Virus record (IMG/VR): IMGVR_UViG_3300032217_000845
Location: 1 to 64,000 of that record
Source: a virus
Strand: one strand, 5' to 3'
Length of the DNA stretch: 64,000 nt
Part shown: positions 49,890 through 63,653 of the stretch, piece after piece
How the letters are laid out: each line of letters opens with the position of its first letter
Numbering within the stretch: the first letter of the stretch is position 1
Position numbers and translations under genes: made by a program
The notes under the pieces: generated by a model
Seen by the model: the letters and a program-made list of their open reading frames with translations, nothing else
What the model was told of the DNA's origin: nothing
Databases searched by the model: none

Positions 49890-49904
49890 GAAAAAACGAA
49901 TACA
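49890..49904 (-). repeat. T-element copy (inverted orientation)
   Basis: Reverse complement of TGTATTCGTTTTTTC. First of two inverted copies 35 bp apart in gap 49768-50015. Confidence 0.85.
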
Positions 49905-49924
49905 AGCGACTAAGACCCTCTACG

Positions 49925-49939
49925 GAAAAAACGAATACA
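49925..49939 (-). repeat. T-element copy (inverted orientation)
   Basis: Second inverted exact 15-mer copy, in tandem with the one at 49890. Confidence 0.85.
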
Positions 49940-49979
49940 ACTAAACTCATCAGCCGACACTCTGATTAGTAATAAGAAG

Positions 49980-50008
49980 TTGCTAAATGTCCGAGGGTGT
50001 GCTACTCT
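49980..50008 (+). promoter_or_regulatory. Early-type promoter, leaderless arrangement
   Basis: TTGCTA - 17 bp - TACTCT with TG before the -10; the ATG at 50016 is seven bases further, leaving no room for a ribosome site. Confidence 0.6.
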
Positions 50009-50015
50009 CTCTGGT

Positions 50016-50579
50016 ATGGAAATCACAACACTAACTAGACACGAATACACCACAGAACGAGTTGCCAAGCACACAGGCAGTTTGGAGGGTTGCTATGACG
50101 ACTTCCACGTTGGCGAAGTCAATGGCGTAGTTATCTACATAGGAACTGACTACGCTGGCACGATTGACCCTGCCAAGAACCCTTTGAGGTTCTCGGACTA
50201 CTCTGCGAAAGAGATGAAAGGCTTTCAGGAGTATTGGGGACATTGGGACGCTATCAACAAGCACCTCCACAACAAGACCACAAAACCGGGCTGGGGTCTT
50301 ATCAACCTAGTTGTCTATGGCTTTGTAAATGGCATACAGATTGGCGACCCTACAAATGTTCTACACGCTGTTCCAACAGGTTTCACGCCAGAGGCAAACA
50401 GGATAGACGCAGGGGAACTTGTCTGGGTAGAGGTAGAACAGGCTGTAATGGATTGGCTCAACTATCCAGATAGCCAGCCAACACTTCACGCAATAGCAGA
50501 GGCAAAGCGTAAGGAGGCTGTTGCTCTATTCACAGCGAGCCTAGACCTAATCCAGCCTCTCGCCACGCTGATAAAATAA
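50016..50579 (+). CDS. Hypothetical protein (187 aa)
   Basis: ATG 50016 chosen because it sits at the predicted transcription start; an in-frame TTG at 49980 overlaps the -35. MEITTLTRHEYTTERVAKHTG, then alpha/beta sequence with VVIYIGTDYAGT and WGLINLVVYGFVNG; ends in a helix. Same strand as the MoxR/VWA module downstream. Unknown. Confidence 0.6.
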   Translation: MEITTLTRHEYTTERVAKHTGSLEGCYDDFHVGEVNGVVIYIGTDYAGTIDPAKNPLRFSDYSAKEMKGFQEYWGHWDAINKHLHNKTTKPGWGLINLVVYGFVNGIQIGDPTNVLHAVPTGFTPEANRIDAGELVWVEVEQAVMDWLNYPDSQPTLHAIAEAKRKEAVALFTASLDLIQPLATLIK

Positions 50580-50592
50580 ATCAGAAATGAAC

Positions 50593-50621
50593 TTGACAAC
50601 TTCGCATTAGTAGTGTAAAGT
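50593..50621 (+). promoter_or_regulatory. Early-type promoter
   Basis: TTGACA - 17 bp - TAAAGT; the spacer is largely the AACTTCGCATTAGT element (50598-50611). Confidence 0.7.
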
Positions 50622-50674
50622 CGTCAGTAGTTGGAAACCTCCAACGCACAAACTCCGAAAGGACGGAAATACAA

Positions 50675-51154
50675 ATGGCAACAGGAACTATCGTTGGCAA
50701 GGGACTTTACTTAGAGTTCGTTCCAACAGACACCACCACTCCTAGCACTAAGGTAATGCAGGTGCTATTCACACCAGAGGGTATTGACGAGGCTGGCAAC
50801 TATGTTCAGTTCTCAATGCACTCTCGCACTATCTCTGAAACTTCACCTCGCAAACAATGGAGGATTACGAAGTGTGGCACAGAGAATAAAGAGTTGCTTT
50901 CACTTGGCTCTGTTGGACAGGTCAAGGCACAGGAACTCGCTGTCCAAATGGTAGAACGCTTTGAGAAATCACTAGAACGAGCAGTTATGCCAGACAAGAC
51001 AAATCCAACTTGGAAACTTCGGTCTAAGCCAATCGCTGTGGAAATCACTTCCTTTGACTTGTCTGAAATCACAGATTGGAAAACCCCTCTGCCAGCACTA
51101 CGCAGAATACAGAAATGTCGTGTAGCACTTGACTTCCCCGAGAAGTTAGTGTAA
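50675..51154 (+). CDS. Hypothetical protein (159 aa) preceding MoxR-like ATPase
   Basis: SD AAAGGACGG upstream. Beta-rich first half (GTIVGKGLYLEFVPTDTTTP) and a helix (VKAQELAVQMVERFEKSLERAV) in the second. Its position before the AAA+ and VWA genes suggests a partner or substrate, but no family is recognised. The promoter of the next gene overlaps its 3' end. Confidence 0.6.
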   Translation: MATGTIVGKGLYLEFVPTDTTTPSTKVMQVLFTPEGIDEAGNYVQFSMHSRTISETSPRKQWRITKCGTENKELLSLGSVGQVKAQELAVQMVERFEKSLERAVMPDKTNPTWKLRSKPIAVEITSFDLSEITDWKTPLPALRRIQKCRVALDFPEKLV

Positions 51155-51157
51155 GGT
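51129..51157 (+). promoter_or_regulatory. Early-type promoter overlapping end of previous gene
   Basis: TTGACT - 17 bp - TAAGGT; the -35 and spacer lie within the 159-aa coding region. Confidence 0.6.
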
Positions 51158-51189
51158 CAATACTACAAACCGATAAGGACGGAAAACAA

Positions 51190-52212
51190 ATGACTACAAT
51201 CGCACCAAGCACCACTCCAACTACCGAGTTGGACGACATCTATCCAGACCTTGCTAAACTTGTGTATGGAGTTGCTATTCAGACACTAGACGCTGGCTCT
51301 GTGCCAGCAGGTCTTGATAGCCTACTTCCTACTGCTGGTCGTGCTAACCTCCGAGCAAAGGGAGGCGACACCACCACTAGCAAGAAAGCAAAGGTAGAAC
51401 TATTGGCAGAACCAATCACAGGTGCTACCACCTACACCAGACCAAATGGTCGTGAGTATTATGCTCGTCAATGGGGCGAACACTCTGACGTGGAAGTCTG
51501 TCGCAAGGCTCGGGATAACAAGCAGTTTATCCTACTATACGGAAATCCTGGCTGTGGTAAGACAGCACTCGTTGAGGCTAGTTTCGGGGACGACCTATAC
51601 ACCATTATTGGAACAGGCGATACAGAGGTTGGCGACTTCCTCGGTGGCTATGTCCAAACTCCAAGTGGAGGCTTTGAGTGGATTGACGGAGTTCTAACCC
51701 GAGCAGTTGAGGAGGGCAAAGTCCTCCTGATTGACGAGGTTGGTCTGATTGACCCGAAAGTTATGTCGCTGGTCTATGGACTAATGGACGGCAGAGATGA
51801 ACTCGTCATTACCTCCAATCCAGAACGAGGCACTATCAAAGCCAAGCAGGGGTTCTATGTAATCTGTGCGACTAACCCTAACGCTGTTGGAGTTCGTCTA
51901 TCAGAGGCTCTGCTATCTCGCTGTGTTATTCAGGCTGAAATGACTACTGATTGGTCGCTTGCCAAGAAGTTAGGTGTGCCAGCCTCGGCTACCACGCTTG
52001 CTCAAAACCTGTCTAAGAAACAACTAGCAGGTGAAGTATCTTGGTCGCCACAGTTCCGAGAGTTGGAGGCGTTTAGGGACTTGTCCAAGACCTTTGGAAC
52101 TAAGTGGGCAGTTGCCAACCTAATCGCAACAGCACCCGAAATGGATAGACCTGTCGTGATAGATGTGGCTACCCGAGTATTCGGTGAGGATTGCCGACCA
52201 GCCAAGATTTAG
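51190..52212 (+). CDS. MoxR/CobS-like AAA+ ATPase
   Basis: 340 aa. Walker A GNPGCGKT at 118-125, GTGDTEVGDFLGGYV (the MoxR/CobS GATEVxDxxGG region), Walker B KVLLIDEVGLIDP near 180, sensor YVICATNPNAVGVRLSEALLSRC. MoxR-type ATPases act with VWA-domain partners; CobS with CobT inserts cobalt during B12 synthesis. The VWA gene follows, so a CobS/CobT-like chaperone pair is likely. Link to the B12-dependent reductase is inference. Confidence 0.85.
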   Translation: MTTIAPSTTPTTELDDIYPDLAKLVYGVAIQTLDAGSVPAGLDSLLPTAGRANLRAKGGDTTTSKKAKVELLAEPITGATTYTRPNGREYYARQWGEHSDVEVCRKARDNKQFILLYGNPGCGKTALVEASFGDDLYTIIGTGDTEVGDFLGGYVQTPSGGFEWIDGVLTRAVEEGKVLLIDEVGLIDPKVMSLVYGLMDGRDELVITSNPERGTIKAKQGFYVICATNPNAVGVRLSEALLSRCVIQAEMTTDWSLAKKLGVPASATTLAQNLSKKQLAGEVSWSPQFRELEAFRDLSKTFGTKWAVANLIATAPEMDRPVVIDVATRVFGEDCRPAKI

Positions 52213-52262
52213 CACTCCGTCCTGTGCTAATAGGGGGAGGTCAAAGAAGTTGCGAAATGGAC

Positions 52263-52291
52263 TTGACTTCCCCCGACAACTCTGCTACTAT
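52263..52291 (+). promoter_or_regulatory. Early-type promoter
   Basis: TTGACT - 17 bp - TACTAT; followed by leader hairpin GGTCAG-AAACG-CTGACC (52299-52315). Confidence 0.7.
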
Positions 52292-52338
52292 CTTACTAGG
52301 TCAGAAACGCTGACCAGAAAATCAGGAAGGATTTTCTA

Positions 52339-54147
52339 ATGGGACACTATTCCAGACTAGCAACACGCACCAGCACCACGCCTCCTGCTTGGCTCAAAAC
52401 CTGCTCGCAGATTGGCACACTCGCTAACACTTGGGCTAATCGTGGCGACCTCGCTGTCTATGGTGGTGAGGACGCAGGTATGGGTGAGGCTCTCGCTTGC
52501 TTTATTCACAGCACAGCAGAGATTGAGGTCAATCTACCAATCGCTTTCGGTAAGGCAACCACGCCTGAAATGGTGGGCGACCTAACAGAACGCTACAACC
52601 AATACGAGTTCCCCGAGGCAACAGGCGTAATCCTCCACGAGGCGTTTCACGCTAGATACTCGGAGTGGAACTACGAACTTATGGACGCTGAAACTAAGAC
52701 AGAGCCAAAGGTTCGGGACGCTTTTATGTTGTTGGAGGAAAGTCGTATTGAGGGGCTGGCTGTCTATCACTTCCCCGAGAACGCATTATTCCTACGAGCC
52801 TCCTCAATGGGGCTGTCTTTCGCAGAGGCAGAAACCTCTATGGAAAAGATGTCTAAGACAGGTGCTTTCGCACACCTCGCAGGTCTGACCCTTGCCAGAG
52901 TTTCGGCAGGTGTCCTTGACGAGTTTGATGTCGCTGGTATCTACAACAGAGTTGCCGAGGTCTTGGGCGAGAAGTGCCTGAAAACTTTGGAGGCTATCTG
53001 GGTAGAGTTCCAGACACTAGACAACACGCTAAACGCTGACCTACTTCGTGGGATTGACCTTGCTCGTAAATGGATAGAGGCTATCAAGGAACGAGCAGAG
53101 GAACGAGGCGAACCAGCAGAACCAGAGTTCGGTGAGGGTATTCCTATTCCACAGGAACTAGCAGAGGCTCTGTCCGAGATTATGGAGGCTCTGGGTGAGG
53201 CTATGGAGGAAACCAAGTCTGCCACAGCAGAGGCTCTGGGTGAGCAACAGCAGGACGAGAACCTGAAAGAGGAAATCAAGGAACGCCAATCCAAAGCCAA
53301 TACCAAAGAGGAACGCAAGGCAGAGGCAGACAGGGTGTTCTCGCACAACTCCACTCTCGGTCAATCTGGTAGCAGTTCCCGATTGGAAAGCACTCGTCCC
53401 CCGAAAGGTGAGGAACGAGCAGGGGCAGTAAAGTTGGCACAGATGTTAGAGAAAGCCAAGTATGTAGAGAGGTCTGCCACAGAGATAGCAACCACTATTC
53501 CACAGGGTCGCCTACGCACTCGGGCTGTCGTCCAAAAGAAAGCGTTGGAGGCTAAGGGCATTAGGTCTGACCTCCCGACTTGGAGGGCTACCAAGCACAA
53601 GCACACCACAGACCCTATCTTGTCTATCGGTGTAATGGTAGATGTATCTGGCTCTATGGGTTCGGCTATGAACCCTATGGCGAGTATGGCTTGGATTTTA
53701 TCCGAGGCTGGTCGCAGAGTTCAGGCTAGAACTGCTATGGTCTATTATGGCTCGGGTGTCTTTCCAACTCTCAAAGTTGGACAGCACTTGGAGGAGGTCA
53801 AGGTCTGGACAGCACCAGACGGAACAGAGGAGTTTGGTCAGGCTTACAAAGCACTTGACGGAGTTCTCGGTCTGACTTATGCCGAGGGCGTGAAGTTGCT
53901 CGTAATCGTATCTGACGGACACTACCGACCAGACCAAGAGAAACAAGTGGTCAAGGCTCTCGCAGAGTGCGACAAGGCTGGCGTGGGAGTTCTCTGGATT
54001 ACACCTGCCGAGTGCCGAGGTGGAAACACCAGCCTCATTAGTGGGACAAATGCCACGCACCTAAACATTACGGACACAGCCTCAATCGCAACTGCTATCG
54101 GCAGGTCGGCAACCGAGGCTCTGACTAAGATTGGAGGGCGAGTGTAA
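52339..54147 (+). CDS. CobT-like VWA protein with N-terminal HExxH
   Basis: 602 aa. N-terminal GVILHEAFHARYSEW has a zincin-like HExxH (His100-His104). A Glu-rich hydrophilic middle (about 250-360) is like that of CobT. The C-terminal VWA domain has MIDAS motif VDVSGSMG (Asp435) and later VSDGHY. Partner of the MoxR/CobS-like ATPase upstream. The HExxH plus VWA arrangement recurs in metallopeptidase-like VWA proteins, so either cobalt chelatase-like or protein-remodelling roles are possible. Confidence 0.82.
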   Translation: MGHYSRLATRTSTTPPAWLKTCSQIGTLANTWANRGDLAVYGGEDAGMGEALACFIHSTAEIEVNLPIAFGKATTPEMVGDLTERYNQYEFPEATGVILHEAFHARYSEWNYELMDAETKTEPKVRDAFMLLEESRIEGLAVYHFPENALFLRASSMGLSFAEAETSMEKMSKTGAFAHLAGLTLARVSAGVLDEFDVAGIYNRVAEVLGEKCLKTLEAIWVEFQTLDNTLNADLLRGIDLARKWIEAIKERAEERGEPAEPEFGEGIPIPQELAEALSEIMEALGEAMEETKSATAEALGEQQQDENLKEEIKERQSKANTKEERKAEADRVFSHNSTLGQSGSSSRLESTRPPKGEERAGAVKLAQMLEKAKYVERSATEIATTIPQGRLRTRAVVQKKALEAKGIRSDLPTWRATKHKHTTDPILSIGVMVDVSGSMGSAMNPMASMAWILSEAGRRVQARTAMVYYGSGVFPTLKVGQHLEEVKVWTAPDGTEEFGQAYKALDGVLGLTYAEGVKLLVIVSDGHYRPDQEKQVVKALAECDKAGVGVLWITPAECRGGNTSLISGTNATHLNITDTASIATAIGRSATEALTKIGGRV

Positions 54148-54239
54148 TCGGCTCGCCTCCACAAGAACCCGATAGGGATTGAGCAACCGAGGAGTTTCCG
54201 TCCCCTTTCACCTCAACTGCTCTCGCTATTGGTAGAGAA

Positions 54240-54272
54240 CCCCTGACAACTTCCCCTTTGGTCAGGGGTTTT
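54240..54272 (+). terminator. Intrinsic terminator after VWA gene
   Basis: CCCCTGAC pairs with GTCAGGGG, then TTTTC. Confidence 0.8.
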
Positions 54273-54374
54273 CGCTTACCCTGACCGACACACAATGTGT
54301 CCAGCAAAAGCATCTCTGCTGGAACTTCGTATCAACTAATCCGAAGTCAGCCTGAGCTGCCGAGATGGTCGCCT

Positions 54375-54389
54375 TGTATTCGTTTTTTC
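54375..54389 (+). repeat. T-element copy
   Basis: Exact TGTATTCGTTTTTTC, followed by C; between terminator and next promoter. Confidence 0.9.
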
Positions 54390-54414
54390 CAAACCGACAC
54401 GCCTCCTCGCCTAC

Positions 54415-54444
54415 TTGACAACTTCGTATTAGTTATGGTAAGGT
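54415..54444 (+). promoter_or_regulatory. Early-type promoter
   Basis: TTGACA - 18 bp - TAAGGT; spacer carries AACTTCGTATTAGT (54420-54433). Confidence 0.65.
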
Positions 54445-54470
54445 CGTAGTATCAACCGAAAGGGAAACAA

Positions 54471-54767
54471 ATGGACGACAGAGAAATAGCAACTAACGCA
54501 TTAGTCCTACTAGGGGCAACTGCCGAGGGCTGTGCCGAGAATGGATTGGCTAATCCAATCCTGTATCAAAGTTTGGAACTAGCAATAGAACTAGCAGAAC
54601 ACCTAGACGAACCTGACCTAGTAGTGCTACTCAAATCAGCGTTGATTGGAGTGGGCGAGGGGATTGAGGAAACTATGGCTATCGTCAAACAAATCAAATC
54701 GCAGTTTGACTTTATGAACACAAGCGAGTATAATCAGGACACGACACCTAACAAGGAGGACAACTAA
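54471..54767 (+). CDS. Acidic helical protein (98 aa)
   Basis: MDDREIATNALVLLGATAEGC begins a leucine-rich all-helical protein. SD CGAAAGGG. Its stop overlaps the start of the ferredoxin-like-domain gene. Unknown. Confidence 0.6.
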   Translation: MDDREIATNALVLLGATAEGCAENGLANPILYQSLELAIELAEHLDEPDLVVLLKSALIGVGEGIEETMAIVKQIKSQFDFMNTSEYNQDTTPNKEDN

Positions 54768-55663
54768 TGCCAAACTGGGTCTATACATCTATGGCAGTAT
54801 CAGGTAAGAAAGACGACCTGCTCGCCTTTGCTAAGAAAGCCAGCCAGCAACACGAAACTCTATGGCTCACCGAGAGGTGGAAACGCAACGAGGACGGCAC
54901 GAACACCGAAGTCCCCGAGGAGGAACGCAAGATTGAGAAAGAACTATCTCCACCAAGTCCTATCTCGTTCTGGAACTTCTTAGCACCAACAGAGGAGGAA
55001 CTGCCTTACTACTTTGGACACGCAACCAAGCCAGAGGACGAGGCTGACCCTGACGCAACTTCCGAGGAACGACTAGCAAAGGCTCTGTTGTTTGAGGGCT
55101 CGGGCTGGTATGATTGGAATGTTCGCAACTGGGGCTGTAAGTGGGACGCCAATGACGAGGAACTGGACACCGACCTAGACACGCTACAACCACACGATAG
55201 CCTGTCGTATCGTTTCTCTACGGCTTGGTCTCCTGCCGAGGGCGTGTTTCGTGCTATGACCGAACAGCACCCCGAACTATCCTTTGAGTTCTCTTGCGAG
55301 GAGGAACAGGGCTGGGGCGTGGTCTATGACGGCGAGAACGGCTCGCTATCTGTGGCTGACGAGTGGGAGATACCGAACAGCCACGCTGACTATGTGGCGA
55401 GGGATAACGAGGACGGCTGTGCCTGTGCGAGAGATGACGACCAAGAGGATTGGTATTCCGATTGTCCTAGACCGAGTGTTGAGGTTGTCGTAGTGGTAGA
55501 ACACCGATACAAGATTACAGCACCGACCATAGCCGAGGCTTGGGAACTTGCTCTCAACGGCAACCCTGCTGACCTGACGGCAAGCCTGATAGAGGGCGAG
55601 ACTACTGCCTTTGTGATAGGCGAGGACGGCAAGCGTATCTACCCGACCTTAGAGAACGCATAA
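54767..55663 (+). CDS. DUF1281/YubB ferredoxin-like domain protein
   Basis: 298 aa starting MPNWVYTSMAVSGKKDDLLAF, with WYDWNVRNWGCKWDA and YRFSTAWSPAEGVFRAMTEQHPELSFEF plus EEQGWGVVY, the signature of the api92/YubB family seen on plasmids and phages. The C-terminal part (from about 230) is an extra beta-rich domain. Function of the family is not known. Coupled to the 98-aa gene. Confidence 0.7.
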   Translation: MPNWVYTSMAVSGKKDDLLAFAKKASQQHETLWLTERWKRNEDGTNTEVPEEERKIEKELSPPSPISFWNFLAPTEEELPYYFGHATKPEDEADPDATSEERLAKALLFEGSGWYDWNVRNWGCKWDANDEELDTDLDTLQPHDSLSYRFSTAWSPAEGVFRAMTEQHPELSFEFSCEEEQGWGVVYDGENGSLSVADEWEIPNSHADYVARDNEDGCACARDDDQEDWYSDCPRPSVEVVVVVEHRYKITAPTIAEAWELALNGNPADLTASLIEGETTAFVIGEDGKRIYPTLENA

Positions 55664-55672
55664 CGGCTCGCC

Positions 55673-55701: not shown

Positions 55702-55707
55702 AGCCTT

Positions 55708-55958: not shown

Positions 55959-56192
55959 GTGCCAAAGACAAAGCAGATAGATACTTGGGAGTGGTTCATA
56001 GAACGCTACCAAGAACTCGGCTACAAATCACTAAATCAGTTTGCTATCGCAGAGGGCTTTCAGAAGTCCAGCCTTAGCAGATACTTCCACAAGCAAAGAC
56101 AAATGCCAGCAGATACCTTGGTGGCTGTTTGCCTTGCTCTCAAAGTCAAGCCAGAGGATTTGCTGGTTGCTCTGAACGAGTGGAAACGCTAG
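55959..56192 (+). CDS. XRE-family HTH protein (77 aa)
   Basis: GTG start with GGAG upstream. GYKSLNQFAIAEGFQKSSLSRYFHKQRQMPADTLVAVCLALKVKPEDLL is a Cro/C1-type helix-turn-helix. Small repressor-like protein inside the early cassette cluster. Confidence 0.75.
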   Translation: MPKTKQIDTWEWFIERYQELGYKSLNQFAIAEGFQKSSLSRYFHKQRQMPADTLVAVCLALKVKPEDLLVALNEWKR

Positions 56193-56257
56193 ACCAACCC
56201 CGATAGGGAAACACCTGAGCAAGTGTTCTAAACTGCTCGCCACAATCTGCCTCCGTT

Positions 56258-56272
56258 TGTATTCGTTTTTTC
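56258..56272 (+). repeat. T-element copy
   Basis: Exact 15-mer, followed by C. Confidence 0.9.
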
Positions 56273-56889: not shown

Positions 56890-56904
56890 TGTATTCGTTT
56901 TTTC
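56890..56904 (+). repeat. T-element copy
   Basis: Exact 15-mer, followed by C. Confidence 0.9.
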
Positions 56905-56951: not shown

Positions 56952-56980
56952 TTGTAAATGTCAGAGGTTTATGGTAGAGT
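56952..56980 (+). promoter_or_regulatory. Early-type promoter, leaderless arrangement
   Basis: TTGTAA - 17 bp - TAGAGT with TG before the -10; ATG 56987 six bases downstream. ACTAATACGAAGTT element at 56940-56953 abuts the -35. Confidence 0.65.
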
Positions 56981-56986: not shown

Positions 56987-57436
56987 ATGGACAAAAGACA
57001 AACTAACAACTGCGAAATCTGTGGCGAGTTATTTACTGACCTACCACTTGACGAGGAGTGTTCTTGCTCAAAGAGAAAGGACGCTGCTTTCTATGTCAAT
57101 AGTGATGGTGGCGAGTTCGTGTGGAACCCTAAACTCAATGAGGACGAGGGAGAGAAACACGAATACTATGTTGTGCGTAATGGGGAAATGCGTATCAAGG
57201 CGACAGATGGCAAGGGTAGAGATTATGTCCTACGCTACACAGAGGACTTAGAGGCTTTCGGTATCACGACAGACGAGCAACTTTACGAGGCAAGCACAGA
57301 CGAGGAAAACTTCTATTGGGATATGAACTCTTGGTTTGAGGTCTGCTGTGATTTTGACGAGGCTTACTCTGATGTCTTTGACGACCTTGACAGAGCCATA
57401 GCAGAGGCAGTAAGATTACGAAAGGAAGGACACTAA
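56987..57436 (+). CDS. Acidic protein with N-terminal Cys cluster (149 aa)
   Basis: MDKRQTNNCEICGELF ... CSCSKRK gives four cysteines for a zinc ribbon; the rest is acidic alpha/beta (WDMNSWFEVCCDFDEAYSDVF). Translation likely from a leaderless mRNA. Stop overlaps the ClgR-like gene start (TAATG), so the two are co-expressed. Unknown. Confidence 0.6.
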   Translation: MDKRQTNNCEICGELFTDLPLDEECSCSKRKDAAFYVNSDGGEFVWNPKLNEDEGEKHEYYVVRNGEMRIKATDGKGRDYVLRYTEDLEAFGITTDEQLYEASTDEENFYWDMNSWFEVCCDFDEAYSDVFDDLDRAIAEAVRLRKEGH

Positions 57437-57723
57437 TGAAACTACGAATAGCGTTTGGCGACACTCTTAGAGAGATACGACAAGACCAACACAGAACTCT
57501 TAGAGAGGTGTCTGTAAAGTCTGGCGTGGCACTTGGCTATGTATCGGAAGTAGAGAGAGGGCAGAAAGAGGCTTCATCGGAAGTCTTGGAAAGCCTGACC
57601 AACACGCTTGGCGTGTCTATGGCTGACTTCCTAATCCTTACAGCGTTGCGTCTAGGTGCTGTCGCTGTCCCCGACACAGCAGAAACCCTACTTGACGAAT
57701 ACACCGACCTTGTGGTAAGATAA
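57436..57723 (+). CDS. ClgR/PopR-like XRE regulator
   Basis: 95 aa: FGDTLREIRQDQHRTLREVSVKSGVALGYVSEVERGQKEASSEVLESLTNTLGVSMADFL. The LGYxSEVERGQKEASSE stretch is the signature of actinobacterial ClgR/PopR activators, which control clp protease and other stress genes. A phage copy could reset host Clp levels. Coupled by TAATG to the 149-aa protein; SD AAGGAAGG. Confidence 0.82.
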   Translation: MKLRIAFGDTLREIRQDQHRTLREVSVKSGVALGYVSEVERGQKEASSEVLESLTNTLGVSMADFLILTALRLGAVAVPDTAETLLDEYTDLVVR

Positions 57724-57742
57724 GGGAAAGGAAAGGACGACA

Positions 57743-57952
57743 ATGAGCAGACAAGTTTATTTTGTAATCGGTGTTGATTTAGACGACAAAACAGTTTTCA
57801 TAGATGACGGCACATTTACGGCTCGCTTTGGTAAAGACGAGCAGGTATGGGACACCGATAAACAAGAGTGGCGAGAATACGAGGGCGAGGAACAAGAGGA
57901 ATACGACCTCGCCTTAGAAATCCTCAACACCGAGAAGTTGAGGGACGACTAA
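57743..57952 (+). CDS. Acidic hypothetical protein (69 aa)
   Basis: MSRQVYFVIGVDLDDKTVFI, beta-rich then acidic. SD GAAAGGACGAC. Coupled to the next gene (TAATG). Unknown. Confidence 0.6.
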   Translation: MSRQVYFVIGVDLDDKTVFIDDGTFTARFGKDEQVWDTDKQEWREYEGEEQEEYDLALEILNTEKLRDD

Positions 57953-58257
57953 TGGAATACGACCTATACTCACCCGAGAGGAACTTCTCGGCTATCCCTG
58001 ACCTGAAACTTGTAAAGATTACAGGGGACGACAGGGACAGAAGTATTCACTTCCTCTGGCGAGGCGATAGACAATGGCTCGCTATGAGTAAGGATAATCC
58101 TTACGAGGATAACTGCTGGCTTGTAGTCAAGACCGACTACACAGACGAGTTTCAGGAGTTTCTTGACGAGGAACTCTCTGGCTACGATAGCCTAGAAAGC
58201 ACCTTTGAGTTATCGGACATTATTCCAACCGAATACTCAATAGAGTTTGATAACTAA
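57952..58257 (+). CDS. Hypothetical protein (101 aa)
   Basis: ATG 57952 overlapping the previous stop is the natural start; an upstream frame to 57868 is Arg-rich shadow. MEYDLYSPERNFSAIPDLKL then acidic alpha/beta. Followed at once by a candidate structured RNA. Confidence 0.6.
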   Translation: MEYDLYSPERNFSAIPDLKLVKITGDDRDRSIHFLWRGDRQWLAMSKDNPYEDNCWLVVKTDYTDEFQEFLDEELSGYDSLESTFELSDIIPTEYSIEFDN

Positions 58258-58527
58258 ATAGACTTGCTTGATACACGCTGAACCATTTTGGTGCGTGGGC
58301 AGAACTAACTACCTGCCTATTATCAAGGAAACCGAGTGAAATCTCGCTAAACTACGGACAACACGCTCGGTGGTGAATACGCCTCTGGTGGAAGTAGCAG
58401 GTCGGGTCTAGAACTGACCAAGAGTTTATTCTCAATGCGAAATAGCACAATGACGCAAAGTAGCCCCTTGTGTGTTCGTCCGAACCTAAGACCAGATAGC
58501 CATAACGCTTTCTGGTCTTTCTCTTTT
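58258..58527 (+). ncRNA. Candidate structured RNA ending in a terminator
   Basis: No gene reads through. A three-way junction is visible: CTTGATA/TATCAAG (58267-58273/58321-58327) encloses CACGC/GCGTG with an ACC/GGT extension (58274-58297) and GGCAG/CTGCC (58298-58302/58313-58317). Further helices: ACCGAG/CTCGGT (58331-58336/58366-58371), TGCG/CGCA (58436-58439/58454-58457), GTTC/GAAC (58474-58485), then the terminator AGACCAGA/TCTGGTCT. No known family recognised; it may be a 3'-UTR-derived or independent small RNA. Confidence 0.6.
58489..58527 (+). terminator. Intrinsic terminator of candidate RNA
   Basis: AGACCAGA pairs with TCTGGTCT, followed by TTCTCTTTTT. Confidence 0.8.
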
Positions 58528-58538
58528 TGGTGAGGTGT

Positions 58539-58553
58539 TGTATTCGTTTTTTC
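58539..58553 (+). repeat. T-element copy
   Basis: Exact 15-mer, here followed by T rather than C. Confidence 0.9.
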
Positions 58554-58600
58554 TCTACGCCTACTGTGGAAAGAGGGAACTTCGCATTAGTGTTTCGTTC

Positions 58601-58630
58601 TTGACAAATGTCAGAGGAGTATGCTAGTAT
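58601..58630 (+). promoter_or_regulatory. Early-type promoter
   Basis: TTGACA - 18 bp - TAGTAT, TG before the -10; AACTTCGCATTAGT at 58578-58591 just upstream; leader hairpin GTCAG-AAAGT-CTGAC at 58640-58654. Confidence 0.7.
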
Positions 58631-58673
58631 CACTATGTAGTCAGAAAGTCTGACACAGAAAGGGTCTAGTCCT

Positions 58674-59159
58674 ATGGGATTGGATATGTATTTAGAGGCT
58701 CGCAAGTATGTAAGTGGATACTCTCACAGACCTATTGACGAGCAGAACGAGTATGAGGAAGTGCTGAACTCGGTAGGTATGTCAAGAACAGACCTAACAG
58801 CAGAGGCAAGTCCTTTCGCTAATGTAAGTATAAATGTTGCTTATTGGCGTAAGGCTAATCAGATACACGCTTGGTTCATCAACAACTACGCCAAAGATGG
58901 TGTAGATGATTGTAGCCCTGTCCATCTTGGCGAGAGATACCACCTTAGTATTCTAAGAAACCTCTGCCAAGAGGTCATTGACGACCACAGCAAAGCAGAG
59001 GAACTTCTGCCTGTTTCATCTGGCTTCTTCTTTGGGTCAGACGAGTATGGCGAATACTACTTCCAAGACTTAGAGAACACCATTGAGCAGTTGGATAAGT
59101 TGCTCTCTAATCCTAAGTTTGCTGAGGGCTGGGACTTCATCTACCAAGCAAGTTGGTAG
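58674..59159 (+). CDS. Conserved phage protein of the MGLDMYL type (161 aa)
   Basis: Starts MGLDMYLEARKYVSGYS and contains NVAYWRKANQIHAWFINNYAKDGVDDC, a pattern recurring in phage and plasmid proteins of unknown function. Acidic, alpha/beta. Own promoter, leader hairpin, ribosome site AGAAAGGG and terminator. Confidence 0.7.
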   Translation: MGLDMYLEARKYVSGYSHRPIDEQNEYEEVLNSVGMSRTDLTAEASPFANVSINVAYWRKANQIHAWFINNYAKDGVDDCSPVHLGERYHLSILRNLCQEVIDDHSKAEELLPVSSGFFFGSDEYGEYYFQDLENTIEQLDKLLSNPKFAEGWDFIYQASW

Positions 59160-59176
59160 CCACAAACTAAGCACGA

Positions 59177-59204
59177 CCCCTTAGCACACGCTAGGGGGTT
59201 TTGC
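59177..59204 (+). terminator. Intrinsic terminator
   Basis: CCCCTTAGC-ACAC-GCTAGGGGG followed by TTTTGC. Confidence 0.8.
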
Positions 59205-59225
59205 TTTACCTGTTTGCTGGCGAGG

Positions 59226-59240
59226 TGTATTCGTTTTTTC
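59226..59240 (+). repeat. T-element copy
   Basis: Exact 15-mer, followed by A. Confidence 0.9.
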
Positions 59241-59265
59241 AGACGACACGGCACGGCACGGGAAC

Positions 59266-59294
59266 TTGACTAAACAAATGAACTATGATACTAT
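59266..59294 (+). promoter_or_regulatory. Early-type promoter
   Basis: TTGACT - 17 bp - TACTAT with TG before the -10. Confidence 0.7.
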
Positions 59295-59336
59295 GTAGAT
59301 ACAACGGGCGAACAGGAAGTAGCCTGAAAGGGATAA

Positions 59337-59708
59337 ATGGAAACTACAACTATTACGGGTCTGGTAGCAACCACACCACGACACCTAGTATCAGCAGACG
59401 GCTTGCCGATTACTTCTTTCCGATTGGCGAGCAGTAATCGCAGGTTTGACCGAGCCACTATGGAGTGGGTGGACGGCGAGACTAATTGGTATACGATTAC
59501 CTCTTTCCGCACACTCGCAATCAACACCGCTACATCTATCAGCAAGGGCGACCGCATTGTTGTATCAGGCACACTTCGTATTCGTGATTGGGACAACGGC
59601 GAACGGGTAGGAACTAGCGTTGAGTTAGAGGCGAGCAACATTGGACACGACTTAGCGTGGGGGACTACCACCTTTGTCCGAACCGTTCATAAAGCAGACA
59701 CCGAATAA
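59337..59708 (+). CDS. ssb: Single-stranded DNA-binding protein, actinobacterial type
   Basis: 123 aa OB-fold: SFRLASSNRRFDRATMEWVDGETNWYTITSFRTLAINTATSISKGDRIVVSGTLRIRDWDNGE, VELEASNIGHDLAWGT, the usual actinobacterial SSB core. The acidic C-terminal tail with DIPF-like tip is missing (ends HKADTE), so it may not recruit host SSB partners. Second SSB of the window besides the DUF669 type at 3839. Confidence 0.85.
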   Translation: METTTITGLVATTPRHLVSADGLPITSFRLASSNRRFDRATMEWVDGETNWYTITSFRTLAINTATSISKGDRIVVSGTLRIRDWDNGERVGTSVELEASNIGHDLAWGTTTFVRTVHKADTE

Positions 59709-59714
59709 CCGAAC

Positions 59715-59808
59715 GGCTCGCCTAACGGCGTGGGATTGGCAAGCCTAACGGCTTGCCTTTCTGCGTTTGACGGCAAGCCTATTGGCGAGCAGACGGCAAG
59801 CCTAACGG
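59715..59808. repeat. Iterated GGCAAGCC-TAACGG motif
   Basis: Copies at 59715-59728 (GGCTCGCC form), 59738-59751, 59772-59785 and 59795-59808. GGCAAGCC-TAAC-GGCTTGCC (59738-59757) forms a perfect hairpin followed by TTTCTGCGTTT and may terminate ssb. Confidence 0.7.
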
Positions 59809-59819
59809 GTGTGTCAGGC

Positions 59820-59848
59820 TTGACAAAGACCGACCGCTATGGTAGGCT
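59820..59848 (+). promoter_or_regulatory. Early-type promoter
   Basis: TTGACA - 17 bp - TAGGCT with TG before the -10. Confidence 0.65.
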
Positions 59849-59885
59849 AGCAGAGCAGACAACCCTGCCAACCGATAGGACAGAA

Positions 59886-60128
59886 ATGACAACCGCACTA
59901 CCCGAACTAACCGAGATGACCACCAAGACCGACCAACCGATAGTCGCACTCTACAACCGAGACGACAGACTAACGGGTATCGTAAATGGCTGGAAAGTCG
60001 CTGACGGAGTAATGGAAATGGACGAGAGTATCAAGCGAGCAGTAGCGACTAGCGAACTGACTATGGCTGAACTCGTTGAGATTGACCAGAGTATCGCCAG
60101 ACTTCGCAACTTGCGTGGAACTCTCTAA
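59886..60128 (+). CDS. Hypothetical acidic protein (80 aa)
   Basis: Start ATG 59886 (AGGA upstream) is chosen because it follows the promoter at 59820; a longer frame to 59730 reads through the repeat cluster and promoter. MTTALPELTEMTTKTDQPIV and a C-terminal helix MAELVEIDQSIARLRNL. Unknown. Confidence 0.55.
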   Translation: MTTALPELTEMTTKTDQPIVALYNRDDRLTGIVNGWKVADGVMEMDESIKRAVATSELTMAELVEIDQSIARLRNLRGTL

Positions 60129-60138
60129 ACAAAACTAG

Positions 60139-60167
60139 CCAAGTGGAAACACTTGGTTTTAGTTTTA
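60139..60167 (+). terminator. Intrinsic terminator
   Basis: CCAAGTG-GAAA-CACTTGG (GNRA loop), then TTTTAGTTTT. Confidence 0.8.
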
Positions 60168-60175
60168 GCCCGAAG

Positions 60176-60190
60176 TGTATTCGTTTTTTC
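60176..60190 (+). repeat. T-element copy
   Basis: Exact 15-mer, followed by C. Confidence 0.9.
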
Positions 60191-60229
60191 CCTGCGTAAA
60201 TTTTGCTGAAAATAAAATCCTAAATGAGT

Positions 60230-60258
60230 TTGATTTTGTCGGGAGTATGTGGTAGGGT
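60230..60258 (+). promoter_or_regulatory. Early-type promoter
   Basis: TTGATT - 17 bp - TAGGGT with TG before the -10; leader hairpin GTCAG-AAATA-CTGAT at 60268-60282. Confidence 0.65.
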
Positions 60259-60313
60259 ATAAATGTAGTCAGAAATACTGATTATCCAATCACTCTGAAA
60301 GGGTGTGGTAAAA

Positions 60314-60667
60314 GTGGAAACACTAAACCAAGTAGTAATAACAAAGTCGGTCAATGGCGTAGAAGTTGCCACGCTATCTGAACTAGGGATTTTGCTAGGC
60401 GTAAAGCCAAGCACTATCTTTGTCTGGATAGATAAATACAAGAACTTCCCTAAGCCTGTTGCCGAAATCAAAGGTGCTGGTCGTAATGGGCGTTCTCGCT
60501 TGTTCCCGATTGACGCTGTTCAGGTGTGGCACAAGAAACACATTACGACACGCAAGGCTAACGAATGGACAGGTATTCTTTCCAAGTTGAGCCAAATCTC
60601 AAAGGCTAGTCCTGCCACTTACAAAATCATTCTGGAAATGATTGACGAAGCGTCAGGTCGCAAGTAG
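60314..60667 (+). CDS. HTH protein, AlpA/MerR-like (117 aa)
   Basis: GTG 60314 gives a workable distance to GAAAGGG; GTG 60305 is too close. ATLSELGILLGVKPSTIFVWIDKYKNFPKPVAEIKGAGRNGRSRLFPIDAVQVW is a winged HTH of the AlpA/HTH_17 type followed by a helical tail that is echoed in the 107-aa protein at 62739. Probable DNA-binding regulator. Confidence 0.7.
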   Translation: METLNQVVITKSVNGVEVATLSELGILLGVKPSTIFVWIDKYKNFPKPVAEIKGAGRNGRSRLFPIDAVQVWHKKHITTRKANEWTGILSKLSQISKASPATYKIILEMIDEASGRK

Positions 60668-60686
60668 CCACACGACACTAGACTTA

Positions 60687-60712
60687 CCCCCTGCTAATCA
60701 CAGGGGGTTTTC
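60687..60712 (+). terminator. Intrinsic terminator
   Basis: CCCCCTG pairs with CAGGGGG, then TTTTC. Confidence 0.75.
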
Positions 60713-60734
60713 TGGTTTTGGGACACGACTAGTT

Positions 60735-60749
60735 TGTATTCGTTTTTTC
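60735..60749 (+). repeat. T-element copy
   Basis: Exact 15-mer, followed by C. Confidence 0.9.
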
Positions 60750-60777
60750 CATCACGACACACTTCGCACTAACACGC

Positions 60778-60806
60778 TTGACTTTATTTAGAAACTATGC
60801 GATAAT
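60778..60806 (+). promoter_or_regulatory. Early-type promoter
   Basis: TTGACT - 17 bp - GATAAT with TG before the -10; ACTTCGCACTAAC element at 60761-60773. Confidence 0.7.
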
Positions 60807-60847
60807 AGAGATGTTGTCGGGAAAGGCTCGGCACGGAAAGGGATAAA

Positions 60848-61171
60848 GTGGGCGACAGGTCTGCGATTATCATTGAGAGTGAAAGGTTCATCACGCCTAT
60901 CACGCTATACGGACACTGGTCGGGCAGGAACAACCTTGCTGCTGTGGCTAGTGTGTTGGAAACTACGGACAGGGTTGGCGACCCGTCTTATCTCACGGCT
61001 CAACTGTTTTACAAGTTTGCTGTGGAACTTGGCAAGTATGACGGAAATCTGTCTTTCGGTATTGACGCTTTCGGTGGGACACCACAGGAAATAAATGCGA
61101 CTATGGACACCGATACGATTGTCGTAAATGCCGATAATGGAACTTGGCGTTGGGCGATACCCGTAGAGTAA
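60848..61171 (+). CDS. Conserved hypothetical phage protein (107 aa)
   Basis: GTG start after GGAAAGGGATAAA. MGDRSAIIIESERFITPITLYGHWSGRNNL looks like small phage proteins of the same start pattern; rest alpha/beta. Role unknown. Confidence 0.65.
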   Translation: MGDRSAIIIESERFITPITLYGHWSGRNNLAAVASVLETTDRVGDPSYLTAQLFYKFAVELGKYDGNLSFGIDAFGGTPQEINATMDTDTIVVNADNGTWRWAIPVE

Positions 61172-61186
61172 TCTTTATACGAACGC

Positions 61187-61231
61187 AGGTTAGCACTCAC
61201 GCAACACGAGTGCTAACCTCTTTTCGTTTTT
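61187..61231 (+). terminator. Intrinsic terminator
   Basis: AGGTTAGCACTC pairs perfectly with GAGTGCTAACCT (12 bp), then TTTTCGTTTTT. Confidence 0.85.
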
Positions 61232-61245
61232 GCTTAGGTAGAAGT

Positions 61246-61260
61246 TGTATTCGTTTTTTC
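61246..61260 (+). repeat. T-element copy
   Basis: Exact 15-mer, followed by C. Confidence 0.9.
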
Positions 61261-61274
61261 CGGCAGCGACAGAT

Positions 61275-61300
61275 AACTTCGCATTAGCGACACGAAGTTA
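61275..61300. repeat. AACTTCG...CGAAGTT inverted repeat
   Basis: AACTTCG (61275-61281) and CGAAGTT (61293-61299) face each other over 11 bp; two facing copies of the recurrent element, upstream of the next promoter. Confidence 0.65.
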
Positions 61301-61307
61301 GACAGAC

Positions 61308-61336
61308 TTGCGTTTGTCGCTAGTGTGTGATACAAT
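61308..61336 (+). promoter_or_regulatory. Early-type promoter
   Basis: TTGCGT - 17 bp - TACAAT with TG before the -10. Confidence 0.7.
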
Positions 61337-61384
61337 GAAGTTATTACACAGGCGAGAAACCTAAGTATCGCTGAAAGGGAAACA

Positions 61385-61807
61385 ATGACAGAAATAGAAA
61401 CAGAGATACAAACTCTCACGGCAGAGTTGGATAGCGATTGTTCTTGCGAGGACTATGACGAGGACACAGACACAAGCAAGCCTAGTGAAAGTTGCTTCGG
61501 AGATTGTTGGACAGAAAGTAAAGACGACTTTACTGAACACTTGCTCAAACCTTACCTTGTTGTAAAGGGTTGGAAAATGGACACGCCTATCAAGGTTGCT
61601 TCATCACGAATGACTTGGCAAGGCATTAGAGGTTGGGCATACACTACGCCTGAACGCTTGGTTGATACGCTTACTCTCAATGGAGATTTTCGCCTAGTGT
61701 TTGAGTTTGACGGAAACGACCTAACTGCTATTCGCTATTCTCACGACGAGCCAATGGGAACAGGTAAGTTTGAGATTGAGTTGTCTGACGAAAGCGACGA
61801 CGACTAA
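61385..61807 (+). CDS. Acidic hypothetical protein (140 aa)
   Basis: ATG after GAAAGGGAAACA. N-terminal acidic part with CSCEDYDEDTDTSKPSESCFGDC (four Cys), then an alpha/beta region (MTWQGIRGWAYTTPERLVDTLTLNGDFRLVF). No known family. Confidence 0.6.
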   Translation: MTEIETEIQTLTAELDSDCSCEDYDEDTDTSKPSESCFGDCWTESKDDFTEHLLKPYLVVKGWKMDTPIKVASSRMTWQGIRGWAYTTPERLVDTLTLNGDFRLVFEFDGNDLTAIRYSHDEPMGTGKFEIELSDESDDD

Positions 61808-61821
61808 ACACGACACGAGAA

Positions 61822-61852
61822 AGGTCGCTGACTTCGGTTGGCGACTTTTTTT
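61822..61852 (+). terminator. Intrinsic terminator
   Basis: GTCGC pairs with GCGAC, then seven T. Confidence 0.7.
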
Positions 61853-61872
61853 GTATCTGCCGATTACGGAGT

Positions 61873-61887
61873 TGTATTCGTTTTTTC
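61873..61887 (+). repeat. T-element copy
   Basis: Exact 15-mer, followed by C. Confidence 0.9.
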
Positions 61888-61961
61888 CTCACCCCTGCCG
61901 AACACGACTTCCCTGTTATCTATTTGTTATAAAACTTTCTACACTTCGGGAATAAATGAAC

Positions 61962-61990
61962 TTGACTTTTAGTTATACTCTATGTAATAA
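61962..61990 (+). promoter_or_regulatory. Early-type promoter
   Basis: TTGACT - 17 bp - TAATAA. Confidence 0.6.
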
Positions 61991-62018
61991 TGTAGTTATG
62001 GACAACGAAAGGGAAACA

Positions 62019-62546
62019 ATGAACAACTACGAGAAGTCATACAGCAACGAGCCGTTTCTAAATGGTGCGTTAGACATACCTATTTGGAGTGAAATACTGC
62101 CGAACTTTTGGCTAGGTGGAACTGCCGATAACGATTGTGTTGGCGATAAGCACTTTCAGTTTGATAGGCAGGACATCTCTATCAAGCCTAGAAACTTTGA
62201 TAGCGTTTATACTTTCTACGCTTACGCTAACCCTGTTGATTGGCTAGTTAGAGAGTTTAGGTTTGGCTACTTTGATAGTGGCGAAACTGACTTTGACTTA
62301 GACGAGTTTAGGCGTATTGCTCTAATGGCTCACGCTGATTGGAAGCGTGGCGAGAGAGTGCTAATGCGTTGCCAAGCAGGTCTAAACAGGTCAAGCCTAT
62401 TCTTTGCCTTAGTGCTTATGATTGACGGCTACACGGCACAAGAAGCGATTGACTTGATACGAGAGAAGCGACACGATAAGTGTCTATTCAATCCTCACTT
62501 CGTAGCGTGGTTGCTCAAACAAGACTTAGAGTTTTGGCGAGCATAA
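62019..62546 (+). CDS. Protein tyrosine/dual-specificity phosphatase-like
   Basis: ATG 62019 follows CGAAAGGGAAACA exactly as in sister cassettes; earlier in-frame starts lie in the promoter/leader. VLMRCQAGLNRSSLFFAL holds the CxxGxxR(S/T) P-loop (Cys118, Arg124), and a candidate general-acid Asp lies upstream. WLGGTADND near 35 fits the DSP fold. Similar phosphatases occur in actinophages and could dephosphorylate host proteins. Confidence 0.82.
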   Translation: MNNYEKSYSNEPFLNGALDIPIWSEILPNFWLGGTADNDCVGDKHFQFDRQDISIKPRNFDSVYTFYAYANPVDWLVREFRFGYFDSGETDFDLDEFRRIALMAHADWKRGERVLMRCQAGLNRSSLFFALVLMIDGYTAQEAIDLIREKRHDKCLFNPHFVAWLLKQDLEFWRA

Positions 62547-62567
62547 ACTCACGCTAAGAAAACCTAA

Positions 62568-62595
62568 CCCCCGTGAAAACTCACGGGGGATTTTC
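62568..62595 (+). terminator. Intrinsic terminator
   Basis: CCCCCGTGA-AAAC-TCACGGGGG, then ATTTTC. Confidence 0.8.
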
Positions 62596-62615
62596 TTAGT
62601 GCGAAGTTGCGAAGG

Positions 62616-62630
62616 TGTATTCGTTTTTTC
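62616..62630 (+). repeat. T-element copy
   Basis: Exact 15-mer, followed by C. TTAGTGCGAAGTT element at 62596-62608 just upstream. Confidence 0.9.
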
Positions 62631-62660
62631 CTTACTCTACAAACACGGTGGAAGTATTAC

Positions 62661-62689
62661 TTGCGTAAATCCATAAGGTATGGTAAGAT
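62661..62689 (+). promoter_or_regulatory. Early-type promoter
   Basis: TTGCGT - 17 bp - TAAGAT with TG before the -10; leader hairpin GTCAG-AAAGT-CTGGC at 62699-62713. Confidence 0.7.
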
Positions 62690-62738
62690 AGTTAGGTAGT
62701 CAGAAAGTCTGGCACAATAGAAATCCTGAAAGGGAACA

Positions 62739-63062
62739 ATGCTAAAAATGGAAATAAATGGGACAGAAGTAGTTAGTCCTATGGAAATCGCAAGTCGCTT
62801 CGGAGTTAGTTTGCCTGCTGTTTATGTCTGGGCAAGGCGTTCGGATTTTCCGACACCACTACTAACGACAGGTGGCTCACAACGACCACGCCACATTTAC
62901 TCGGCTACCGAGATTGAGGCTTGGGTCGCTGAACACCTTGACGCTAAGGGTGGCAGGGGCAAGGCTCATCTAATCGGGCGTAGAGTTCTAGGGCTGGCAA
63001 CATCTAACCCTGAAATCTACAAGCAGATTGAGCAGTTGCTAGAAAGCACCGACACCGAATAA
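62739..63062 (+). CDS. HTH protein, AlpA/MerR-like (107 aa)
   Basis: VVSPMEIASRFGVSLPAVYVWARRSDFPTPLLTTGGSQRPRHIYSATEIEAWV is a winged HTH with an arginine-rich wing; the C-terminal helix LATSNPEIYKQIEQLLE resembles the ASPATYKIILEMIDE tail of the protein at 60314, so the two are probably paralogues. SD CTGAAAGGG. Confidence 0.72.
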   Translation: MLKMEINGTEVVSPMEIASRFGVSLPAVYVWARRSDFPTPLLTTGGSQRPRHIYSATEIEAWVAEHLDAKGGRGKAHLIGRRVLGLATSNPEIYKQIEQLLESTDTE

Positions 63063-63078
63063 GGCTCTGAAAGAAACA

Positions 63079-63113
63079 CGCTTACCCGAAAGGGTAGGCG
63101 TTTTCTTTTTTTG
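63079..63113 (+). terminator. Intrinsic terminator
   Basis: CGCTTACCC-GAAA-GGGTAGGCG, then TTTTCTTTTTTT. Confidence 0.8.
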
Positions 63114-63133
63114 CTAATGCGAAGTTAGCCGAG

Positions 63134-63148
63134 TGTATTCGTTTTTTC
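63134..63148 (+). repeat. T-element copy
   Basis: Exact 15-mer, followed by C. CTAATGCGAAGTTA at 63114-63127 just upstream. Confidence 0.9.
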
Positions 63149-63187
63149 CTTACACGCTGTCTAGCACGACACGCTAATAGTATGAAC

Positions 63188-63216
63188 TTGCTTTTGTCGG
63201 TAGTATTTGGTATAAT
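63188..63216 (+). promoter_or_regulatory. Early-type promoter
   Basis: TTGCTT - 17 bp - TATAAT with TG before the -10; leader hairpin GTCAG-AAAGA-CTGAT at 63226-63240. Confidence 0.75.
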
Positions 63217-63257
63217 AGTTATGTAGTCAGAAAGACTGATTACAGAAAGGGAAACAA

Positions 63258-63572
63258 ATGGAAATCGCTTTACTAGGTTTCTTAGGTGTTGTATCGCTTA
63301 TGACTATCGGTGCTTTCTTGGTCGTAGTCTTGTGTGCGTTTATCATCTACAAGATAGACCCGACTTATGACGAGTTTGGTTTCTGGGGAAACTTCCGTAT
63401 GGAACTCTCCACTATCCTTGCTGGCAAGTTTGGCTACGAAGTATCACGACAAGAATACAAACAGGCTTACGACTTAGGTGTCAAAATGAGCGACAGAACT
63501 CTACAAGGTAGCAAGAACAGACACCCTGCCAACAATGATGGTAAGTTGCCTTACGAACTCTACAAATACTAA
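63258..63572 (+). CDS. Single-pass membrane protein (104 aa)
   Basis: SD AGAAAGGGAAACAA. Residues 1-31 (MEIALLGFLGVVSLMTIGAF and onward) are a long membrane helix, then a soluble domain with FGFWGNFRMELSTIL and a basic tail. Function unknown. Confidence 0.65.
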   Translation: MEIALLGFLGVVSLMTIGAFLVVVLCAFIIYKIDPTYDEFGFWGNFRMELSTILAGKFGYEVSRQEYKQAYDLGVKMSDRTLQGSKNRHPANNDGKLPYELYKY

Positions 63573-63593
63573 GTAGAACTCACCGAGAGATTA

Positions 63594-63620
63594 CCCCGTA
63601 GAGATACGGGGTTTTCTTTT
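63594..63620 (+). terminator. Intrinsic terminator
   Basis: CCCCGTA-GAGA-TACGGGG, then TTTTCTTTT. Confidence 0.8.
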
Positions 63621-63638
63621 ACCCTGTGGGCTGGGAGT

Positions 63639-63653
63639 TGTATTCGTTTTTTC
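63639..63653 (+). repeat. T-element copy
   Basis: Exact 15-mer, followed by T. ACTAATACGAA at 63660-63670 just downstream. Confidence 0.9.

Follow-up and report, generated by a model that had tools for sequence, protein, structure and literature searches.

What reads a short sequence that is repeated, letter for letter, in the gaps between the small early genes of a phage? The question is raised by the window, i.e. the whole stretch of 64,000 nucleotides analysed here, which is the first 64 kb of the 125,776-bp record IMGVR_UViG_3300032217_000845 (G0, or G000). The virus is a tailed phage whose hosts are probably freshwater actinobacteria. Its closest named relative is Actinomycetia phage DSL-LC01 (65% amino acid identity in the primase and 67% in the ATPase), which comes from Dishui Lake (PMC10611076); a DNA search of named phages gave no match. 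The window also encodes a small serine recombinase (17865–18524; Resolvase PF00239, 1.3e-33), a family that is represented in DSL-LC01 as well, together with a phage tmRNA (30321–30616, tag ANTSAYALAA) and the tRNAs tRNA-Asn (30873–30945) and tRNA-Thr (32792–32864).

Two sets of relatives were compared. IMGVR_UViG_3300047554_000854 (G001, or G1) has a syntenic early array and came from a scan of viral contigs by the repeated 14-mer alone; among the matches listed in that scan, most are chance single matches. A further 80 relatives were retrieved via the ATPase gene that adjoins the array.

The repeated box and its setting

A search of the whole record finds the 14-mer GTATTCGTTTTTTC 41 times in G0, always within 49.9–78.6 kb. 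The preliminary description listed 14 copies, all of which proved exact and correctly placed, and termed them identical over 15 bases. This is true of the 14-mer core, but not of the first T. The exact 15-mer occurs 40 times in G0 (31 forward and 9 reversed, from 49,890 to 77,987), and the 41st copy, at 78,567, has C instead of T as its first base. In the syntenic array of G001, the 43 copies of the 14-mer are preceded by T, C, G or A, and because the first base is free there, the invariant core is a 14-mer and not a 15-mer. No one-mismatch variants exist in G0 or G1. Reading the pattern backwards yields 0 matches, and sequences shuffled with their dinucleotides preserved contain 2.1 matches on average when as many as three mismatches are allowed.

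All copies are intergenic (41/41 in G0 and 43/43 in G001), although intergenic DNA forms only 23% and 33% of these sequences. Equal frequency inside genes, which the preliminary description had said would refute its reading, is thus not seen, and the search it proposed over the phage and its relatives also extends the same kind of box to further phages, as described below. The structural and replication regions have no copies. Forward and reversed orientations stand at 31:10 in G0 and 36:7 in G001; the two inverted copies first noted at the left edge do exist, but inversion is not limited to that pair, as 10 of the 41 G0 copies are reversed.

When the 84 copies of G0 and G1 are aligned with 45 bp on either side, high information is confined to the 14-mer plus the bases that adjoin it (T before, C after). 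There is no conserved second half-site within 45 bp of the box, and inspection reveals no dyad in the 14-mer. The box contains a T6 tract, and eight positions outside this T-run are also invariant.

The gaps have a regular anatomy: a stop codon, usually a hairpin resembling an intrinsic terminator, the box, a sigma-70-type promoter, a leader with a GAAAGG-type ribosome site, and then the gene or genes. The early units of the array are all on the + strand and contain one or a few small genes each. The placement of the box between terminator and promoter, as first described, is borne out, with a terminator-like hairpin upstream of 70 of the 84 copies (G0 and G1) and a promoter-like site downstream of most. 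In the G0 array, 31 of the 34 promoter-bearing gaps have a box, and the structural region (79–126 kb) has almost no promoters of the array type and no box.

At the left edge, the reversed copies at 49890 and 49925 lie between a leftward promoter and the promoter of an operon encoding gene A, an ATPase and a VWA protein. Internal reversed copies are upstream of rightward promoters, not leftward ones; a rule that the reversed box always serves a leftward promoter holds for the left-edge pair of G0 and fails for the internal copies. The features of the window are given below, where promoters and start sites are computed predictions and d is the distance in bp from the box to the -35 hexamer.

49823–49851, - strand: leftward promoter-like site TTGACT-17-TATACT, PWM score 11.0, d = 38 from copy 1
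49890–49903, - strand: copy 1, exact match; left edge, reversed; leftward promoter 38 bp away
49925–49938, - strand: copy 2, exact match; left edge, reversed; 41 bp from the rightward TTGCTA-17-TACTCT
49980–50008, + strand: promoter-like site TTGCTA-17-TACTCT of the first operon (gene A, 50675, AAA-ATPase, VWA protein)
54376–54389, + strand: copy 3, exact; promoter 54415–54444, d = 25
56259–56272, + strand: copy 4, exact; promoters at d = 7 and d = 84
56891–56904, + strand: copy 5, exact; promoter 56952–56980, d = 47
58540–58553, + strand: copy 6, exact; promoter 58601–58630, d = 47
59227–59240, + strand: copy 7, exact; promoter 59266–59294, d = 25
60177–60190, + strand: copy 8, exact; promoter 60230–60258, d = 39
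60736–60749, + strand: copy 9, exact; promoter 60778–60806, d = 28
61247–61260, + strand: copy 10, exact; promoter 61308–61336, d = 47
61874–61887, + strand: copy 11, exact; promoter 61962–61991, d = 74
62617–62630, + strand: copy 12, exact; promoter 62661–62689, d = 30
63135–63148, + strand: copy 13, exact; promoter 63188–63216, d = 39
63640–63653, + strand: copy 14, exact; weak promoter calls at d = 27 and d = 62

Other intergenic elements are found in the same region. The 29-base element AACACCTGAGCAAGTGTTCTAAACTGCTC is near-identical in three phages (56210–56238 of the window, 12244 of G001, and the G003 record, L134 11406), with diverged surroundings. It sits behind a small Cro/C1-type HTH gene, where a hairpin terminator would be, and could fold into a stem-loop with the loop GAGC pairing to a downstream GCTC (a pseudoknot). 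The 273-bp gap at 58258–58530 has a strong predicted fold (-87.7 kcal/mol), is partly conserved in L134 (8770–8933), and may possibly be a non-coding RNA unit; an Rfam search of 48–64 kb, this gap included, gave no match. A second, degenerate element, AACTTCGCATTAG, is present in both orientations in the array (49800–79000) and in G001, with 29 intergenic matches in G0 and 19 in G1 at up to 2 mismatches. It overlaps or adjoins promoters, is related to AACTTCnnACGAA of relatives, and is possibly an operator, perhaps for the ClgR-like regulator encoded at 57436–57723.

The box is in helical phase with the promoter

The decisive finding is a link between box and promoter through helical phase. 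The promoter model was derived by expectation maximisation on the spacers downstream of the boxes, with box position unused, and yielded TTGACT, 17 bp and TAnnnT. Distances from the box to the -35 hexamer in G0 and G1 fall in clusters of 28–30, 36–41, 47–51 and 59–60 bp. A periodogram over 6–20 bp has its maximum at 10.5 bp (R = 0.58, n = 67), which 0 of 5000 smoothed-null draws reach, and when five genomes are pooled the peak is at about 10.25–10.5 bp, the DNA helical repeat (R = 0.54, n = 120, 0 of 2000 smoothed-null draws). It should be pointed out that the p-values take copies as independent and some cassettes are orthologous, which the lineage replicates partly offset.

The same phasing test is negative for terminator-to-box (p = 0.11), stop-to-box (p = 0.17) and box-to-start-codon distances (p = 0.67). 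When a plain regular expression replaces the model, the outcome is unchanged: it finds 105 promoters versus 3.0 in shuffled spacers, and with these promoters the forward copies alone give R = 0.61 (n = 89). Reversed copies alone, 16 of them with promoters, display no significant phasing (R = 0.23, p = 0.42). A downstream promoter scoring >6 accompanies 94 of 131 forward copies, and G0 has an off-phase minority (d = 7, 24–25, 55 and 70–76). Changes by whole turns between orthologs are weakly positive (p = 0.036, the pairs being non-independent).

Dialects of the box in related phages

The same kind of box recurs in at least seven related phage contigs, in a dialect that is uniform within each; the exact 14-mer is absent from the 80 relatives fetched via the ATPase gene. 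The box is GTATTTATTTTTTC in record G002 (orientation 36:2) and in L141 (10:0), GTATTCATTTTTTC in G003 (23:1) and TATGTATTTTTTC in the L146 record (13:0). A more divergent form, TTTTTCATTTTTAC, is found in the L155 record (13:0), and TATTCATTTTTTC was found in G013 (22:1) by a composite-pattern search. Dialects of the TATKYR-TTTTTTC type have their differences confined to three central bases (TCG, TCA, TTA or GTA). Invariance within a genome is strict in G0, G1, G003, L141 and the L146 record; the L155 record and G002 have a minority of one-mismatch copies, and invariance is therefore not strict in every lineage.

Spacing to the promoter is nearly fixed in G003 (G3), with 16 of 20 distances at 27–29 bp, is mostly 28–31 bp in G002 (G2), and is 28–30 and 39 bp in G4. 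In G013 it extends over whole turns at 18, 26–30, 37–41, 48 and 57 bp (R = 0.70, p = 1.4e-4). The pattern by which G013 was found had required 27–31 bp at a single site, and this slight bias leaves the other G013 sites unaffected. The left-edge pair of G013 consists of two forward copies 21 bp, or two helical turns, apart (d = 48 and 27).

Other relatives (L133–L212) have other lineage-specific intergenic repeats, TTTTTCCATGC, TTTTTACCC, TGCTACTAAG and TGATCGATCA, plus extended -10 elements; TGCTACTAAG is present in about 42 copies, at up to 1 mismatch, in 14 kb. No clear phasing was found in relatives with these four repeats and others, and the claim is thus limited to the TATKYR-TTTTTTC clade and its near variants. 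DSL-LC01 is similar in its homologous primase and ATPase and in its array of small early units, many with a terminator and a promoter. It differs in being without the box and in repeating an extended -10, TCTAAAGATGTTATA, which is present in 15 copies, all on the + strand.

Unrelated genomes, also named in the preliminary description, were searched for the box followed by 27–31 bp and TTGAC. In 84,980 species genomes this one spacing class gave 13 single matches, with 0 in Actinomycetota, and no prokaryote regulon with the box appeared at the tested spacing.

A candidate activator site and its alternatives

The reading favoured here, at a probability of about 0.62, is that about 40 early units share a composite promoter whose upstream element is the 14-mer, and that a regulatory factor reads this element. 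Since the box stands whole helix turns upstream of the promoter, one regulatory protein most likely docks there, probably a sequence-specific activator encoded by the phage. The earlier guess of a transcription factor binding site is supported by the promoter phasing, the lineage dialects and the lack of a prokaryote regulon at the tested spacing. The observations themselves cover the invariance of the box, its place between genes, its helical phasing to the promoter, the recurrence of this pattern in independent lineages and the lack of such a prokaryote regulon at the tested spacing; protein binding, activation rather than repression, a phage origin of the factor and contact with the alpha C-terminal domain (alphaCTD) are what we infer.

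In the proposed mechanism, a sequence-specific DNA-binding factor would occupy the box on a fixed face of the helix; the -35 hexamer, belonging to a sigma promoter of the host type, would lie 28–30 bp downstream or farther by one to three helical turns. The bound factor would touch RNA polymerase, most simply via alphaCTD in class-I fashion, and a single factor would set the output of the entire early array together. A probable phage origin of the factor, together with its co-evolution with the site, would account for copies that are identical within a genome and differ in dialect among relatives.

With a 17-bp promoter spacer and a start 7 bp after the -10 assumed, the box centre is at -(42.5 + d), i.e. 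at about -61 for d = 18–19, -71 for 28–29, -81.5 for 39 and -92.5 for 50, with a range to -103. Class-I activator sites, such as those of CRP at lac and related promoters, also lie upstream of the -35, near -61.5, -71.5 and -82.5, and need the same helical face; with CRP, class-I cooperativity is greatest at -61.5, -71.5 and -81.5/-82.5 and absent or almost absent at -66.5 and -76.5 (PMC6301791). The box agrees in location (centres about -61 to -103; main d values 28–30, 38–40 and 47–51) and, as judged from box-to-promoter distances and their maximum at 10.25–10.5 bp, in helical-face dependence. CRP sites are 22 bp long, palindromic and degenerate, whereas the box is 14 bp, asymmetric and invariant at about 40 promoters of one phage. 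Because the box does not overlap the polymerase footprint, positive control is the simplest interpretation, and repression by contact or looping is conceivable. The MotA box of T4 middle promoters is at about -30, in place of the -35 element; the present box differs, as its end is mainly 28–30 bp or farther from a -35 hexamer, on the upstream side.

A search for the factor among HTH proteins did not find it: none of the HTH candidates covaries with dialect. HTH proteins are encoded at 55959, 57436, 60314, 62739, 80358 and 82562. The ClgR-like XRE protein (57436–57723) is widespread, with a recognition helix that is nearly invariant across dialects and in box-less phages. Two dual-HTH proteins (80358–80867, 169 aa; 82562–83116, 184 aa) are conserved across dialects, and a counterpart of the first adjoins the terminase in Microbacterium phages. 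Gene A (50016–50579), behind the left-edge pair, is unrelated or highly divergent between lineages. All of these were set aside as readers of the box.

The same site and geometry might instead serve a repressor or silencer, such as an immunity regulator, that closes the early units late in infection or in lysogeny by polymerase contact or looping, with a function like that of stoperators, a reading that appears unlikely. Cluster A (L5) stoperators are short asymmetric sites of about 20–30 copies per genome, mostly in one orientation, and their dialects track relatedness (PMC6550527, PMC9283540); the L5-type motif varies with its cognate repressor (PMC6550527). An asymmetric site of about 13 bp, repeated more than 20 times with biased orientation, is closely matched by the invariant, lineage-specific and intergenic 14-mer (41 and 43 copies; orientations 31:10, 36:7, 23:1 and 10:0), and the phage has the serine recombinase at 17865–18524. 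However, the centres at -61 to -103 are outside the polymerase footprint. Most stoperators, moreover, are away from promoters, block elongation and are inactive when reversed (PMC6550527, PMC9283540), whereas the box is phased to promoters (94/131 forward copies with a promoter; 31/34 G0 gaps) and keeps its reversed copies in front of them. By its position, the box is not an L5-type stoperator. The 17-bp repeats of Cluster O (Corndog) also exceed 30 copies in one phage genome, but they are palindromic, with a third in genes and most not near promoters (PMC4351075), and are excluded by the lack of a dyad in the 14-mer.

That a host activator or nucleoid protein reads the box, or that the T6 tract is a UP-like or bent-DNA element for alphaCTD, is if anything more doubtful than repression. 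UP elements are rich in A/T, and a T-tract introduces a bend into DNA, from which helical phasing is expected too. Yet the eight positions beyond the T-run are invariant as well. A host factor is also less likely because the composite is rare and, in the one spacing class searched, never found in Actinomycetota, and because dialects differ between close relatives.

The preliminary description also suggested a boundary used in cassette shuffling. As the main role of the box, by linker homology or as a recombinase site with the promoter link secondary, this is very improbable. G0 and G1 do differ in the order of their early units once the first block is passed, a single box stands between units, and one orthologous unit (G0 64735–65088, G1 19626; 88% amino acid identity) has its boxes in opposite orientation, although its downstream spacers are about 83% identical over aligned bases. 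Here the box is inverted in place and the genes are not, which a recombinase would not leave; in addition, the phasing is to the promoter and not to terminator or genes, and a second half-site is lacking. Several downstream spacers of orthologous units in G0 and G1 are above background, and most upstream spacers are not. As the downstream spacer tends to be similar to that of the ortholog and the phasing is to the promoter, the box seems to be a part of the promoter that is carried along with it. PeSLs of T4-like phages are composite promoter-terminator motifs in a repeated gap around small shuffled early cassettes; unlike these, neither the hairpin nor the promoter spacer is conserved here, and within 45 bp of the box information is confined to the 14-mer and its neighbours.

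A second, hairpin-less terminator read through the T-run, likewise suggested at first, is scarcely credible: the box does follow a hairpin terminator and its T-run faces downstream in most copies, but 70 of 84 copies are already behind such a hairpin, reversed copies stand in the same place, and nothing would hold a T-run that acts in RNA in phase with the next promoter.

The activator reading can be carried further, tentatively and with considerable doubt: a phage class-I-type activator might read the 14-bp box as a password at about 40 early promoters, with lineage dialects, perfectly uniform in each genome, that gate acquired units and tell co-infecting relatives apart. If so, newly acquired units would be expressed only with the resident password, and co-infecting relatives would be distinguished at promoter activation.

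Boxes repeated throughout a phage genome are usually read as repressor sites, or as repeats with no function assigned; here, the statistics of position link the box to the promoter. As this link is by helical phase, an activator-type mechanism is directly testable, and the phasing test can be applied to other repeated phage motifs. On the activator reading, a single upstream contact would coordinate an early programme of some 40 small units, and this contact would be diversified in concert by related phages.
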